From Betaproteobacteria bacterium (GTDB lineage Bacteria; Pseudomonadota; Gammaproteobacteria; Burkholderiales; Burkholderiaceae_A): a DNA stretch of 64,000 nt. The position numbers and the translations under genes are program-made. Of this stretch, positions 44,030-50,893 are shown in pieces. Each line of letters starts with the position of its first letter. The first letter of the stretch is position 1. Location: contig JAOINB010000001.1 in NCBI GenBank assembly GCA_028139135.1, positions 109,171 through 173,170 of the forward strand. The letters are read 5' to 3'. The notes beneath the pieces were generated by a model that made no database searches, had not been told where the DNA came from, and saw only the letters and a program-made list of their open reading frames with translations.

Positions 44030-45050
44030 TTTCTTTTACCGAATTATCAAGCCAATATTGTTCAAACTCGATCCCGAAAAATCACATGACTGGGTTTTTT
44101 ATTTTTTAAGTCGATTAGAGTTAATTGGTGGTAAGTTTTTTTCCGTAACCTCTCCACCATTGGTCAAACCTACTTATGTGAGAAAACTTTTTTTTAATAA
44201 TCGGATTGGCTTAGCTGCCGGACTAGATAAAAATGGAGAATATATAGATGCTCTATCCAGATTTGGATTTGGTTCAATAGAAGTGGGTACAGTCACGCCC
44301 ATGGCTCAAACCGGTAATGAGAAACCACGCTTATTTAGAATTAAAAATGAACGAGCACTCATTAATCGGCTCGGATTCAATAATGTAGGAATGCACCAGG
44401 TTTTCAAAAATATAAAAAAATCCAGGTGGGTTAGAGAAAAAAAAGGAGTTTTAGGAATTAATTTAGGTATTAATAAAACTACCTCACTGCATAATGCTTA
44501 CATGGATTATCAAAAAGGATTGCTATTCTTTTGGGGTGTTGCCAACTATTTTGTGATTAATATTTCATCCCCAAACACCAAACAGGTTCGGGAGCTTCAA
44601 ACTGATAAATATTTAGAAGATTTAGTCAAAAAAATAAGTAGGTTCCAGAAACAGCAAAATGAAAAAATGGGTACCCAAAAACCCGTTCTCTATAAAATAT
44701 CTCCAGATAATAATGAAAAGGAACTAGAGAAAATATCCCATGTGTTTAATAAATTCAGTGTTGATGGTGTAATAGTTACGAACACAACAAATAATCATGA
44801 CGAATTAAATAGTGATTTAGAGGTGCTCGGCGGTTTATCAGGGGCTCCGCTAGAGCAGAGAGCTTTGTTATGTTTAAAGAAAATAAAGCCCCTTCTCAAC
44901 AGGGATATCGTAATCATTGCATCGGGTGGAATTATGAGTAAAGAAGCAGTTGAGGAGAGAATTAAAGAAGGCGCGTCACTAGTTCAAATTTACACTGGTT
45001 TAATTTATGAGGGACCAAAAATCGTCTCTGACTCACTTGAAAACCTATAA
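44019..45050 (+). CDS. pyrD: Dihydroorotate dehydrogenase, quinone type (PyrD)
   Basis: About 343 residues from ATG 44019 (MSIDFFYRIIKPILFKLDPEKSHD). This membrane-associated class 2 enzyme passes electrons to quinone during UMP synthesis. The N-terminal helix pair is present. FMN-site blocks are GLAAGLDKNGEYID and EVGTVTPMAQTGNEKPRLFR; the catalytic Ser lies in VINISSPNTKQVR. A longer frame to 43983 lies within bpt and is unlikely. The 3' end overlaps the convergent PBP gene by 46 bp. Confidence 0.95.
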   Translation: MSIDFFYRIIKPILFKLDPEKSHDWVFYFLSRLELIGGKFFSVTSPPLVKPTYVRKLFFNNRIGLAAGLDKNGEYIDALSRFGFGSIEVGTVTPMAQTGNEKPRLFRIKNERALINRLGFNNVGMHQVFKNIKKSRWVREKKGVLGINLGINKTTSLHNAYMDYQKGLLFFWGVANYFVINISSPNTKQVRELQTDKYLEDLVKKISRFQKQQNEKMGTQKPVLYKISPDNNEKELEKISHVFNKFSVDGVIVTNTTNNHDELNSDLEVLGGLSGAPLEQRALLCLKKIKPLLNRDIVIIASGGIMSKEAVEERIKEGASLVQIYTGLIYEGPKIVSDSLENL

Positions 45051-46294
45051 TTTAAAATATTTTCTCGATAAAAAATACGTTCGAATGGTCGCATGGATAT
45101 CGTTTTTTCTGAAGCAAGCCATGAAAAGATGCGCTTTGCGTCTTTAGCCCTGTCTAAAGACTTTGTTGCGTCTAAGGTGATTATGATAAACGGTTTTCCT
45201 TTGACCCTGGTAATCATAGCTAAACACTTCCCAGATGGCCTGATAAAGCCCGTCTTTGACACTGAGATATCCCAATTCTCATTCCTAACCAAAAGATTAG
45301 AATTCCTAAATCGATGAGTTTTATTTAAAACTTTCACTTTAGACATCTTTGACGTGGAAAACTTCACTATAAGCGGCAGCCTCGATGCTGCATCAACTAA
45401 TTTAGCTAGATCTCGTGCACTAGAAATATTTCCACTATTTAAACCAGTAGGCTCTGTAAACTTTGTACTCCACATACTCAGAATCTTGCTTTTGACGTTC
45501 ATAGCACCTACGAAGGCATCTAACCCACCCGGAAAAGTCCTTCCCAAAGCAAAGGCCGCCCTATTTTCAGACGACATGAGAGCTAAATGAAGTAATTGCG
45601 CCCTTGTAAACCGACTACCAACCTTTAAGCGAGAATAATTATATCTTTCTAAATTTGCATCACGTTTGGTGATTTTTATAATTTTACTTAGATTTAATTG
45701 ATTCTCAAGGATTAAAAGAGCCGTCATTAGTTTGGTCAATGATGCTATTGGGAGAGCTACATCTGCATTTTTTTCAAATAAAACCTTGCCCGTAGTTTGG
45801 TCAATTACAATTGCAGCGCTTGAATTCAATTTCAGGAAATCTACGGACTTCTTCAGTCCCAGCTTAGTCGCGACTGATTTTTCTAAGTTTCTGCGTGGCG
45901 TGTAAATCAAGATTTTCTGCCCAATGAAAATTCTATTTGATCGTAAATTATTCCATCTCCGTAAGTCTTTTAAACGAACTTTATACCTTTGAGAAATTTC
46001 AGATAACGTATCTCCTATCACTACGCGATGAAATCTTTTCGAAAGACTTTTGTTCTTTTTTCTTGAAACTCTTAGTTTCTGCCCAATGAAAATTCTATTT
46101 GATCGTAAATTATTCCATCTCCGTAAGTCTTTTAAACGAACTTTATACCTTTGAGAAATTTCAGATAACGTATCTCCCGAAGAGACAGTATGATATTTAA
46201 ACTGCCCAGCACTAACAGGCTTACAGAACCAGAGAAAAATCAGTAATAGAAAGAAAAAGTTGTTCCGCAAAAATATTTTTAATCTCTCGTTCAT
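45005..46294 (-). CDS. D-alanyl-D-alanine endopeptidase/carboxypeptidase with twin LysM domains (PBP7-like)
   Basis: 429 residues. The signal peptide covers about 1-29 (FFFLLLIFLWFCKPVSAG). Two LysM domains at about 34-77 and 88-131 are nearly identical. The S11 peptidase domain (about 145-400) carries SxxK as SLTK in PIASLTKLMTALLIL, SxN as SEN in MSSENRAA, and KTG in VSKTGFI. It acts on peptidoglycan cross-links or side chains. LysM domains are not usual on E. coli PBP7, so the protein can probably hold its wall substrate by itself. It is convergent with pyrD. Confidence 0.9.
   Translation of the reverse strand: MNERLKIFLRNNFFFLLLIFLWFCKPVSAGQFKYHTVSSGDTLSEISQRYKVRLKDLRRWNNLRSNRIFIGQKLRVSRKKNKSLSKRFHRVVIGDTLSEISQRYKVRLKDLRRWNNLRSNRIFIGQKILIYTPRRNLEKSVATKLGLKKSVDFLKLNSSAAIVIDQTTGKVLFEKNADVALPIASLTKLMTALLILENQLNLSKIIKITKRDANLERYNYSRLKVGSRFTRAQLLHLALMSSENRAAFALGRTFPGGLDAFVGAMNVKSKILSMWSTKFTEPTGLNSGNISSARDLAKLVDAASRLPLIVKFSTSKMSKVKVLNKTHRFRNSNLLVRNENWDISVSKTGFIRPSGKCLAMITRVKGKPFIIITLDATKSLDRAKDAKRIFSWLASEKTISMRPFERIFYRENILNYRFSSESETIFGPS
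45914..46015. repeat. Direct repeat, copy A (102 bp, LysM 2)
   Basis: A 102-bp stretch that recurs without mismatch at 46076-46177, offset by 162 bp (54 codons, in frame). It encodes most of the second LysM domain of the PBP7-like protein. Identity at silent sites indicates recent duplication or gene conversion. Confidence 0.95.
46076..46177. repeat. Direct repeat, copy B (102 bp, LysM 1)
   Basis: The partner of the copy at 45914-46015; it encodes the matching part of the first LysM domain. The 60 bp between the copies differ, marking the linker. Confidence 0.95.
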
Positions 46295-47292: not shown

Positions 47293-48642
47293 ATGACTGA
47301 GTCCAACGGAGAATATTGCGCAGACCTTCCGGAATCTACCCGTCTAGTGGGATGGTTCCGTTCAGCAGCTCCTTATATTAACCTATTTAAAAACAAAATT
47401 TTTGTCACCTCTGTGTCAAAAAAAAATTTTTCATCGGGAAATCTCGCAAGATTAATTCAAGATTTGTCTTTCTTGCGTGCAATAGGAGCCCAAATCATCC
47501 TAGTTTTTGACCCAAAAGATTTGTTGAATGAAGAACTGAAGAGACGAAAGCATTCACTTGTTTTTGAAGATGGAATCCCAATAATTGATGATATAGCTGC
47601 TGAATGTTTTCAGGCTGCTATTGGAATGATGCGTATCGAATTAGAATCACTCTTTTCCACGAAACTACCAAATACCTCAATGAATTTTTCTAATATAAAG
47701 ATTATTAGTGGTAATTTCGTTGATGCAAAGCCAATAGGAGTCCATAAAGGTATTAATTTTTGTAAGACAGGTGAACTGCGAAAAATCGACATATCCTCCA
47801 TTAAGCGAACTCTAGATCTAGATGCAATTGTACTGATTTCTCCAATAGGGTTTTCAGCTACTGGAGAAATGTTTTTCTTAAACAGTGAAAAACTTGCTAG
47901 GGATATCGCTTGTATTATGAAAGCGGACAAACTTATTTTTATTACAGATTCCCTATGTAACCCTAGAAAATCCTTCAGTGATATACGGGAACTCCTTACT
48001 AGAACCTATGAAGAAAATAAGGCGTCTATTATAGAAAAGTTTCCGCAATTAAATTACTTATTTGAACTAGCGAACTCAGCTTGTAACAATAATGTAGATA
48101 GAACTCATATATTACCCTACGAACAAGACGGAGAAATTCTTTTGGAATTATTTACGCGTGAAGGAGTAGGGATTATGGTGTCAAAGAACCAGATAAAAAA
48201 TATTAGGCCTGCAGTTACTGCAGATATCAATTCGATATTATCGCTGATTGATCCGTTTCAAAAAGATGGTACTTTAGCAAAAAGAGACAAAGTTGATATC
48301 GAAACAAATCTTTCTAGCTATATTGTTTTGGATCATGATGGGCAAATCTACGGCTGTGCGTGCCTTAACCATTATTTAGCGGAGAATGTTGCTGAGATCT
48401 CATGCCTTATAGTTCGACCAGATTATCAACAAAAAGGAGAGGGATCCAGGCTCTTGAAGCATGTGGTAGAAAAAGCAAAAAGAGATAACATTAAACAAAT
48501 TTTTGCGCTAACTACAAAAGCAGAACATTGGTTTCTTGAGAAGGGGTTTATCAGAGGGGAAAAACAATTACTTCCAAAGGAAAAAATTCAAACTTATGAG
48601 CCTGCTAGAAACTCGCTTATACTAATAAAATTTATTGACTAA
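47293..48642 (+). CDS. argA: Amino-acid N-acetyltransferase, N-acetylglutamate synthase (ArgA)
   Basis: 449 residues, the normal length for ArgA. The amino-acid kinase-like domain (about 10-290) starts WFRSAAPYINLFKNKIFVTSVSKK and provides arginine feedback control. The GNAT acetyltransferase domain (about 302-449) has CLIVRPDYQQKGEGSRLLKHV, the acetyl-CoA loop. It performs the first step of arginine synthesis. The ATG has no strong ribosome site. It ends 5 bp from a convergent unknown gene. Confidence 0.95.
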   Translation: MTESNGEYCADLPESTRLVGWFRSAAPYINLFKNKIFVTSVSKKNFSSGNLARLIQDLSFLRAIGAQIILVFDPKDLLNEELKRRKHSLVFEDGIPIIDDIAAECFQAAIGMMRIELESLFSTKLPNTSMNFSNIKIISGNFVDAKPIGVHKGINFCKTGELRKIDISSIKRTLDLDAIVLISPIGFSATGEMFFLNSEKLARDIACIMKADKLIFITDSLCNPRKSFSDIRELLTRTYEENKASIIEKFPQLNYLFELANSACNNNVDRTHILPYEQDGEILLELFTREGVGIMVSKNQIKNIRPAVTADINSILSLIDPFQKDGTLAKRDKVDIETNLSSYIVLDHDGQIYGCACLNHYLAENVAEISCLIVRPDYQQKGEGSRLLKHVVEKAKRDNIKQIFALTTKAEHWFLEKGFIRGEKQLLPKEKIQTYEPARNSLILIKFID

Positions 48643-48647
48643 CAAAC

Positions 48648-49373
48648 CTAATCTGCGAAAATTGGATATACCCCACTTTCTGTCCATGCAAGTCCACAAA
48701 CTAGCGTATCTAACTGTATTCCTGCATCCATCCAAAATATAAAAACAAGCTTACCATCGTCTGAAATTTTGGCTATTTTACCATACGAAGAGCTTTCCAC
48801 AATTTTGACAGCCATTCTTTCTGGAAATCTAGGGACTATCACGATATTTTCAGAATTTCTTTCAACGACTGATATAGCTGGTTGCAAACAGTTAGCGAAA
48901 GAATATATTCGTTCTTGCTCGAGGTTAGTTGCTAATTTAATCCAGACTCCAAAAACCTCGTCTACCCTTGCCCCTTGCTCACAAAGACTAACTATGAGAT
49001 TTTTAACTCTTGGCGAAATAGAAACATTCTTGAGTTTCTCATAGTGCATAGCAAATGGACGAGCTCTTCGTCGTGCTAAATGTCCCCCTAGTAAGTTTGC
49101 AAGTGTTCTAATTTTTTTATCCTGAACAGTAGAGTTCGAAATATGTGACGCCAAGGAGAGCCACACCGCTGCCTCCGGACGATAGTTTTGTTGGTTTACT
49201 TCCCTGAGTTTATCCTGCCCCTTATAATCATCTGGAATCGTCTTGTTATCAGAATCTATATTTCCTTTGTTGAAAAGCTTACTAGTATTTTTAATTTTTG
49301 AGATGCCAGCAATAAGCTCATCCAATTCACTCTCAAACTCTTCTTCATGTTTCCCCACCTTACTTTTTTCCAT
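48648..49373 (-). CDS. Unknown soluble protein, third gene behind dnaQ
   Basis: 241 residues. The N-terminal 70 residues are acidic and low in hydrophobics, probably flexible (HEEEFESELDELIAGISKIK). From about 75 the protein looks folded: AVWLSLASHISNSTVQDKKIRTLANLLGGHLARRRARPFAMHYEKL is likely helical, followed by a beta-rich end with IVIVPRFPERMAVKIVES and GKLVFIFWMDAGIQLDTLVCGLAW. No signal peptide or membrane segment is seen. I do not recognise the family. It overlaps the upstream membrane gene by 14 bp. Confidence 0.6.
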   Translation of the reverse strand: MEKSKVGKHEEEFESELDELIAGISKIKNTSKLFNKGNIDSDNKTIPDDYKGQDKLREVNQQNYRPEAAVWLSLASHISNSTVQDKKIRTLANLLGGHLARRRARPFAMHYEKLKNVSISPRVKNLIVSLCEQGARVDEVFGVWIKLATNLEQERIYSFANCLQPAISVVERNSENIVIVPRFPERMAVKIVESSSYGKIAKISDDGKLVFIFWMDAGIQLDTLVCGLAWTESGVYPIFAD

Positions 49374-49911
49374 TAAATTTAAGTTTCTTTAGATCCTTAA
49401 CTATTGAGATCGACTTTTCTAACGAATCTAACGATTTCTGAGCATCATCTGCCGAATAAATCCCATTCATATCCAACATTAAGTTAAAAAGATCATGTCG
49501 AGCTGATTCAATCTCTATTAATAAACCGTCGATCTTTTCATTAACTAATCCAGAAAACTTTTGATCATTTTTTTTAAAATTTTTCTCTGTGTTCTTTTCT
49601 TCTGACTCCCTACTTATTTTTTTTATCATCAAGTCTCCACTAATATCATCCGAGCCATCCGAAAAAAATTTATATAAAAGACATGAACTTAAATACGCTA
49701 TAGAAAAGAAAGCAACAGAAAAAATCAAGCCCTTTTCATGCAAAAGTACAGATAGATCTACTGAGCCCCACCGAGGAAAATGCTGGAGATAATTTGCCAT
49801 CAATGAATTACTCATCACAGAAATATATGTTAAAACTATACCCGTTAAAAAAGATAGCAAGCCTAAATATTTCAAAAATAAAACTGTTGAGCTCTTTTTT
49901 TTTCTAATCAT
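49360..49911 (-). CDS. Unknown membrane protein with cytoplasmic helical tail
   Basis: 183 residues. Two membrane helices, at about 10-31 (STVLFLKYLGLLSFLTGIVL) and 60-82 (LIFSVAFFSIAYLSSCLLYKF), flank a short loop with HFPRWGSVDLSV. The remaining 100 residues are Lys/Glu/Asp-rich with heptad-like spacing (VNEKIDGLLIEIESARHDLFNLM, then SLDSLEKSISIVKDLKKL) and may form a coiled coil. No family was recognised. It overlaps both flanking unknown genes (8 bp and 14 bp), so the three are translated together. Confidence 0.6.
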   Translation of the reverse strand: MIRKKKSSTVLFLKYLGLLSFLTGIVLTYISVMSNSLMANYLQHFPRWGSVDLSVLLHEKGLIFSVAFFSIAYLSSCLLYKFFSDGSDDISGDLMIKKISRESEEKNTEKNFKKNDQKFSGLVNEKIDGLLIEIESARHDLFNLMLDMNGIYSADDAQKSLDSLEKSISIVKDLKKLKFNGKK

Positions 49912-50197
49912 AAACTAATCTCCGGTCAAAGGAGTCAACGAAAATAGCTCTTCCCGCATCTCCATCTCGTTGCAAAATAAAAATATAGTTTGGTTTTGTC
50001 CATGGTGACAATCCAGCATAGTTAACTTTTTGAAACAAATTACTGGGTTCTAGCAATAATGTTGGATGGCCTCCCAAAATCCGTACCATAAATACTGCTT
50101 CAAAAATACTATCCAATTCCTCCCCGCGCATAACTCTCGTAACTTCAATTTTTTTAATTGAGTATGATATCGATCGTCTCTGAAAAAGTATCTTCAT
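49904..50197 (-). CDS. Unknown small protein, first gene behind dnaQ
   Basis: 97 residues, mixed alpha/beta and basic at the start (MKILFQRRSISYSIKKIEVTR). It contains LGGHPTLLLEPSNLFQKVNYAGLSPWTKPNYIFIL and ends VDSFDRRLVYD. No signal peptide, membrane helix or known motif is seen. It begins 18 bp after dnaQ and overlaps the next gene by 8 bp. Position argues for a real gene in the dnaQ operon; the function is unknown. Confidence 0.55.
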   Translation of the reverse strand: MKILFQRRSISYSIKKIEVTRVMRGEELDSIFEAVFMVRILGGHPTLLLEPSNLFQKVNYAGLSPWTKPNYIFILQRDGDAGRAIFVDSFDRRLVYD

Positions 50198-50215
50198 TTT
50201 TTTGATTTTACGTTA

Positions 50216-50893
50216 CTAAGCTTTTCCCTGATTTTTTATTTTTTCCATATATTTTCCGTGAGCTCTTTCCTCGTCCGAGGATGCTCTCCGAACATAGATT
50301 TGTTTGGTAATGATATCGCTATTTTGGAATAATTTCGTATTTTTCCCTAAAACACCTTCCTCAATTATTAAGGATTCTTGTCCACGCGTCATAGCCAGGT
50401 AAACATCTGCTAATAAGCGAGCGTCTAGAATAGCGCCGTGCATATTTCTCATGCTTCTATCAACGCCGTACCTAATACACAAGGCATCAAGCGAGGCCCT
50501 TTTCATCGGGTGTAACTCTCGGGCTAATTTAAGCGAATCAATTATTTTGTTACATATCTCGCTTAACTTACACTTACCTGCTCTCGCTAACTCCGCGTCA
50601 AGGAATCCTTTGTCAAATTCTGCATTATGTATGATTAAGGTAGTACCTTTTATAAATTCTATAAACTCTTCAGCAATGCCCTCAAACTTTGGGTAAATCT
50701 TAAGTTGCGCTGAGTTCATTCCGTGAATCTCTTCAGCTCCCTTGTCAACCTCACGAACAGGATTAATTTTTTGATGGTATTCCCGACCGGTTAGACTTCG
50801 ATTTTGTATTTCGACACAACCAATTTCAATGACTCGATGACCATCTTCGACATTTAATCCAGTTGTTTCCGTATCGAGAACCACATAACGCAT
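50216..50893 (-). CDS. dnaQ: DNA polymerase III epsilon subunit, proofreading exonuclease (DnaQ)
   Basis: 225 residues. Exo motifs are DTETTGL (7-13), HNAEFDKGFLDAELAR (near 93-108) and HGAILDARLLADVYL (near 157-171), so the DEDDh set is complete. It removes misincorporated bases for the replicative polymerase. The C-terminal polymerase-binding tail is short. The start lies inside the end of the RND pump gene (40-bp overlap), so dnaQ expression here probably depends on read-through from that gene. Confidence 0.94.
   Translation of the reverse strand: MRYVVLDTETTGLNVEDGHRVIEIGCVEIQNRSLTGREYHQKINPVREVDKGAEEIHGMNSAQLKIYPKFEGIAEEFIEFIKGTTLIIHNAEFDKGFLDAELARAGKCKLSEICNKIIDSLKLARELHPMKRASLDALCIRYGVDRSMRNMHGAILDARLLADVYLAMTRGQESLIIEEGVLGKNTKLFQNSDIITKQIYVRRASSDEERAHGKYMEKIKNQGKA

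Follow-up and report, generated by a model that had tools for sequence, protein, structure and literature searches.

Three adjacent orphan genes, ORF97, ORF183 and ORF241, in the window (the whole stretch of 64,000 nucleotides that was analysed) may well encode a pared-down core complex of the chemosensory type, kinase-dead and situated at the inner membrane. The genes form an overlapping block that is conserved in the bacterial family to which the window belongs and is under purifying selection, and the product of the first has a predicted CheW fold. The genes and their immediate neighbours are as follows.

49904-50197, minus strand: ORF97, predicted CheW-fold adaptor of 97 residues, shorter than CheW
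49360-49911, minus strand: ORF183, inner-membrane protein with two spans and a cytoplasmic helical tail, candidate mini-receptor
48648-49373, minus strand: ORF241, soluble protein, candidate miniature kinase-dead CheA
50216-50893, minus strand: dnaQ, preceding ORF97 in the same run (context)
47293-48642, plus strand: argA, convergent with ORF241 across a 5-bp gap

The coordinates agreed with the earlier note, which had described products of 97, 183 and 241 residues starting 18 bp behind dnaQ, with overlaps of 8 and 14 bp. The spacer between dnaQ and ORF97 spans 50198-50215, and the overlaps lie at 49904-49911 (ORF97 and ORF183) and 49360-49373 (ORF183 and ORF241). The first bases of dnaQ overlap the last ones of an RND pump gene, ahead of which lie an MFP gene and rnhA; these three names are presumed from the sequences, without a family search. 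As all of them are on the same strand, the trio is the end of a longer gene run. Elsewhere in the window, at 45005-46294, a D,D-carboxypeptidase-like protein is encoded that by eye contains two near-identical LysM-like repeats at its N-terminus.

The window's own genome (G000) was compared with its nearest relative (G001), giving dN/dS values of 0.22 for ORF97, 0.38 for ORF183 and 0.31 for ORF241. The values for the neighbouring genes ranged from 0.04 to 0.12 (dnaQ 0.07, rnhA 0.04, argA 0.12, RND 0.06). The three ORFs are under purifying selection, yet they evolve faster than these four neighbours. Since their frames are intact and follow the same order across the family, and given dN/dS values of 0.22-0.38, the three ORFs are real genes. 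The suggestion that the trio is a functionless, decaying remnant of a lost chemotaxis operon would fit the fast evolution and the absence of canonical chemotaxis genes from most of the family, but the intact frames in 22 of 26 genomes at low sequence identity, the dN/dS values and the second trio copies in some species make this already disfavoured explanation highly improbable.

The complete trio was found in 22 of the 26 family genomes through loci read and profile hits, distributed over three genera as 6/8 (own genus), 9/11 (g2) and 7/7 (g3). This count includes G015, where the trio is split over two contigs, and G014, where the ORF241 relative comes from profile hits alone. Identity across the sister genera is approximately 14-25%; a single-sequence query with ORF241 matched 10 of 61 relatives, and profiles of ORF241 (A1) and ORF97 (A3) each gave matches in 22 of the 26 family genomes. 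In G003 and G007 both the trio and a dnaQ match were absent, so the region is probably missing from these two assemblies. The expectation that the trio travels as a block was borne out in the 22 genomes and failed, wholly or in part, in two others: in G020 (L119, 8256-9793) an ORF183 relative stands alone between dnaQ and argA with no space for the other two genes, and in G010 ORF97 and ORF183 are located at dnaQ, with the ORF241 relative in the type VI secretion locus L079. Of the 18 longer dnaQ-side loci, 16 had dnaQ labelled close to the trio and 17 had argA; dnaQ was not listed by the ORF picking in L018 and L074, and argA was absent from L078. Three g3 genomes (L018, 10940-13754; L016; L019) have HTH_25/Cds6_C, TPR/Cds6_C and YkuD L,D-transpeptidase genes between dnaQ and the trio, named by Pfam in the L018 set only; these genes are not found at this position in G009.

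The dnaQ neighbourhood was inspected in ten genomes from other families of the order, and in none of the ten did the trio follow dnaQ. Among 300 order genomes outside the family, profile A1 (ORF241) gave three weak matches (E 4.6e-5 to 0.007) and profile A5 (ORF97) gave six (E 0.015-0.041). None was retained as a true relative; two of the ORF241 matches lie inside frames of approximately 850 residues and the third in a frame with a stop. Among the genomes sampled the trio is essentially restricted to the family of the window. A phage origin was also considered and dropped, as no ORF241 relatives were found in viral contigs.

ORF97 matched no Pfam or NCBIfam family, and PF01584 was detected in 0/25 of its relatives at E<=1. 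A CheW-like domain was suspected from the alignment prior to modelling. The AlphaFold2 model of ORF97, obtained with 25 sequences, had a pLDDT of 88.2 and a pTM of 0.81. When this model was searched with Foldseek, ranks 1-15 of 163 were all CheW or CheA chains with probabilities of 0.99-1.00, followed by a probability of 0.07 at rank 16; the best match was 6s1k_C (E 6e-4, probability 1.00). With VIA the top 11 chains were likewise all CheW or CheA, with Z scores of 5.4-7.3 compared to 3.2 for the next chain, and the best match, 6s1k_A, gave a Z of 7.3 over 90 residues at 2.9 Å.

Alignment of the ORF97 family with CheW using hhalign gave 90 collinear columns at an E of 0.028, which falls short of significance for a database hit; 0 of 149 usable column shuffles equalled it in score, length or summed probability. 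The CheW profile consisted of 17 CheW-type proteins taken from loci in other genomes of the order; the family itself contributed two of these loci, in G014 and G020, and one more in G020. The signal was gone when the own-genus rows of ORF97 were used alone (E 0.25), and against CheA P5 20/150 shuffles were equally good. In the hhalign register the invariant Gly43 of ORF97 aligns with the turn glycine Gly63 of CheW, one of two glycines described in the accessible part of PMC3828127 as absolutely conserved in two classes. The same part of that source gives a Glu38-Arg62 salt bridge as a feature of CheW of the F7 class; at the position equivalent to Arg62 an arginine is present in one of the 25 ORF97 relatives and missing in 24. 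Judged by the model, ORF97 very probably has a CheW fold, a domain that occurs in chemosensory systems only, as stated in the available portion of PMC10782961.

The similarity could instead have arisen by convergence on a small β barrel, in which case the trio would be a structural or envelope complex without a link to signalling. This is consistent with the sizes of the matched chains, which are CheW chains of 131-156 residues or parts of CheA against the 97 residues of ORF97, as well as with the weak sequence alignment (E 0.028) and the missing CheW arginine. However, the wide gap between CheW-type and other matches (probability 0.99-1.00 against 0.07; Z 5.4 against 3.2) and the position of a paralogous trio next to genes for a multi-span membrane protein, a response regulator and a histidine kinase render convergence improbable.

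The model of ORF241 (AlphaFold2, 26 sequences) had a pLDDT of 79.0 and a pTM of 0.68. The N-terminus contains one predicted helix followed by low-confidence sequence, and residues 30-60 are mostly unreliable. The remainder of the model is arranged in three segments.

49068-49211, minus strand: ORF241 residues 55-102, helical, corresponding in position to CheA P3 (from DSSP of the model and the CheA alignment range)
48825-49067, minus strand: ORF241 residues 103-183, corresponding in position to CheA P4, with the succession helix-strand-strand-helix-strand-strand and without N, D and G boxes
48651-48824, minus strand: ORF241 residues 184-241, corresponding in position to CheA P5 but approximately half its size, with five strands

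Comparison of this model with 998 chains using VIA placed CheA at ranks 1, 2, 3 and 5, over 174-179 residues. The first rank was 3ja6_C, with a Z of 7.8 over 179 residues at 4.6 Å and residues 55-241 of the model superposed on CheA 295-667; the other CheA chains were 8c5v_A (Z 6.4), 1b3q_A (Z 6.4) and 6s1k_A (Z 5.9). All of these scores are below 8, a range in which a match possibly reflects a common arrangement. Foldseek returned no matches to ORF241 at E<=0.001, its best CheA chain being 1b3q_A in third place (E 0.06, probability 0.33). At the level of sequence, 41/150 shuffles were as good as the hhalign alignment of ORF241 with CheA, and for its pieces against the separate CheA domains the corresponding counts were 71/100 (P3), 40/100 (P4) and 50/100 (P5). 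The P5 piece compared with ORF97 gave 35/98 equally good shuffles; compared with CheW it gave 1/98, but over 15 columns and as one of five tests, and this result was not counted. CheA was not detected in ORF241 by HMMER or Pfam. A match of ORF241 to Tox-REase-7 (E 0.12; 13.1 bits, the cut-off being 25; in one of 26 relatives) was taken as chance.

Motifs of the ATP-binding N, D and G boxes were searched for. DxGxG was present in 0/26 ORF241 relatives compared to 30/30 CheA proteins, the N-box pattern in 3/26 compared to 30/30, and GxG[LVM] in 6/26 compared to 30/30. A phosphotransfer domain P1 with its histidine was not detected in ORF241, nor was there any convincing Pfam match among 26 members. 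The assignment of ORF241 to CheA is purely structural, and with the ATP motifs lacking it implies a dead kinase. The model lends moderate support to a CheA-like shape, and ORF241 is probably CheA-like.

A different interpretation would keep ORF97 as an adaptor of CheW fold and regard ORF241 as an unrelated mixed α/β protein, similar to CheA through a common arrangement, and ORF183 as an unrelated membrane anchor, so that the three would form a lineage-specific membrane complex with one recruited CheW-like domain. The lack of Foldseek matches to ORF241 at E<=0.001 and of a sequence signal agrees with this, as does rank 4 of the VIA comparison, a de novo designed protein that reaches a Z of 6.1 over 63 residues of the middle part of ORF241. 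The CheA match, however, covers 179 residues and takes in all three CheA segments in their proper order, and a CheA is just what would be expected as the partner next to a CheW-like protein; an unrelated ORF241 is accordingly considered rather unlikely.

The two membrane helices that had been described in ORF183 were confirmed as hydropathy segments at residues 9-27 and 61-79, separated by a short loop.

49831-49887, minus strand: ORF183 residues 9-27, membrane span 1 (hydropathy)
49675-49731, minus strand: ORF183 residues 61-79, membrane span 2 (hydropathy)
49378-49557, minus strand: ORF183 residues about 119-178, tail, the most conserved part of the protein (alignment A2)

Conservation of the tail centres on ARHDLFNLMLDxNG, and the only residues invariant in nine relatives are N143 and L146. 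The arrangement of two spans and a cytoplasmic tail is shared with MCP receptors, as judged by hydropathy and with the orientation assumed. The MCP signalling tip PF00015 was found in 0/9 members of the ORF183 family, and in the hhalign comparison with three MCPs 21/150 shuffles were equally good. To our knowledge the tail is far shorter than that of any known receptor. By its position and topology ORF183 would be a receptor, whose tail may fold as a hairpin.

Column shuffles and 11 decoy families from the same gene neighbourhoods served as controls for the profile-profile comparisons, and the positive control, CheA P5 against CheW, gave an E of 3.3e-6. Such comparisons had been proposed for each protein; ORF97 with CheW was the only pair better than its shuffles, and ORF241 with CheA and ORF183 with MCP did not exceed theirs. 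HMMER searches of the PDB sequences with the three proteins, ORF183 included, detected no CheW, CheA or MCP, and the top matches, to cadherin and peptidyl-tRNA hydrolase (E 0.0055 and up), were taken as chance. The earlier note had found no nameable motif in any of the products, which holds in that none has a Pfam or NCBIfam family and needs amending in that ORF97, at least, has a known fold by prediction. Structure prediction gave a clear CheW-like result for ORF97 and a moderate CheA-like match for ORF241. The proposal of a small complex in the earlier note is partly supported and a good guess, since the trio travels together and CheW and CheA bind each other in known complexes; the block in 22/26 family genomes and the CheW- and CheA-like predicted folds favour it, and G020 and G010 are exceptions. 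A trio of this kind was not found described in the open-licence PMC literature at the level of titles and abstract openings, which is no proof that it is unpublished.

CheA is a binding partner of CheW, and here the CheW-like and CheA-like folds emerged independently of each other, for genes on either side of that of a two-span membrane protein. In the proposed chemosensory-type core complex ORF97 would be a small CheW-like adaptor and ORF241 a miniature CheA-like scaffold, comprising dimerisation helices, a shrunken ATPase-derived domain that would be unable to bind ATP in the known way, and a half-size CheW-like end. ORF183 would be a minimal two-span receptor, with ORF97 and ORF241 assembling on its helical tail near the membrane. 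Because there is no phosphorylatable domain and there are no ATP motifs, the trio itself would not act as a kinase. A signal picked up by the membrane or the periplasmic loop may alter how the complex is assembled, or its conformation, and the complex in turn may recruit or control another protein; candidates are a two-component pair and, in relatives, a BLUF photosensor.

A second trio is present in G023, G024 and G025, with the gene of a multi-span membrane protein directly after it; G016 has this arrangement too, with no fewer than the ORF183- and ORF241-like members of a second trio. In G023 and G025 the multi-span protein gene is followed by a NarL-type response regulator, a histidine kinase and TssB. 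The paralogous trio overlaps the multi-span membrane protein gene by 4 bp in L076 (10677-16460, G023), L075, L077 and L184, with a NarL-type regulator, a histidine kinase and type VI secretion genes adjoining. PAS-like domains were seen by eye in the multi-span protein, where Pfam found none. The protein is present in 13 of 26 family genomes, including contig C12 of G000, where a ParA-like gene and a gene of 296 residues occupy the place of the second trio upstream of it. This type VI secretion island (L177, 5898-12816) reads ParA-like gene, 296-residue orphan, multi-span membrane protein, HTH, response regulator and histidine kinase, and its order is kept in the own-genus loci read (L178-L182).

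TssB was found in 12/26 family genomes but in 0/7 of the g3 genomes, all of which contain the trio, so the main trio is independent of type VI secretion, and a strict tie between the two was dropped. A scan of 24 loci with a short pattern placed a BLUF-like gene next to the trio in 11 of them (0/5 in own-genus loci); in the one locus tested it was confirmed by Pfam. In L083 (11051-11509) and ten other loci this short photosensor gene follows ORF241, or ORF183 in the case of G010. A fuller interpretation, put forward tentatively, is that a kinase-free chemosensory machine, made up of a receptor, a CheW-like adaptor and a CheA-like pseudokinase with approximately 520 residues in total, has been re-used as a membrane-bound signalling scaffold in a family mostly without canonical chemotaxis, serving a two-component switch of type VI secretion in some species and lying beside a BLUF blue-light sensor in others.

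Canonical CheW exceeded the cut-off in two of the 26 family genomes (G014 and G020), with no PF01584 match genome-wide in G000, and MCPsignal was found in three of the 26, G000 not among them. CheA P3 matched 56 of 80 order genomes but 0/3 of the family genomes among the 80. By eye, the genes listed on either side of the trio included no recognisable CheY, CheR or CheB. G020 has lost the CheW-like and CheA-like trio genes and kept the membrane gene, as if in this one case canonical proteins had taken over from them. Simple replacement is disfavoured because G014 contains canonical CheW and MCP together with the whole trio, albeit divergent. Involvement in type IV pili was considered and dropped, pilT being over the cut-off in 2/26 family genomes and not in G000.

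CheA, CheW and receptors are usually viewed as one kinase machine. If the proposed reading is true, a conserved kinase-disabled version would show the scaffold itself to be capable of being the useful part, and would account for three families of orphan genes in a group of bacteria whose genomes are small. The trio, at approximately 520 residues, would then be a minimal system for studying receptor-adaptor-scaffold assembly alone.

When the trio was compared with known systems, ORF97 resembled CheW (PF01584) and CheA P5 in its predicted fold, its weak collinear profile alignment and its turn glycine. It differs from CheW in having 97 residues, in escaping Pfam recognition in 25 members and in the loss of arginine 62 in 24 of 25. 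The accessible part of PMC5706961 describes Vibrio ParP as binding MCP and CheA and tying arrays to the ParC anchor. The likeness to ParP/ParC is the ParA-like gene upstream of the multi-span protein in the type VI island of G000; Vibrio has full chemotaxis arrays, whereas here the ParA link is one of position alone, in a different locus. ORF241 is like CheA in the order of helices, ATPase-like part and β barrel in its model, and differs in its 241 residues, the lack of N, D and G boxes and of a detected phosphotransfer domain, and a P5 of approximately half size; P1, P3, P4 and P5 are the core domains of all CheA proteins in the available text of PMC10782961. The same text describes the kinase domain of CheA3 from Cereibacter (Rhodobacter) sphaeroides as being without helices and ATP-binding residues and judges it non-functional. 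CheA3, as far as that text extends, keeps an intact first phosphotransfer domain and a kinase partner, CheA4, neither of which was found for ORF241, but its kinase domain is disabled, likewise as proposed for ORF241.
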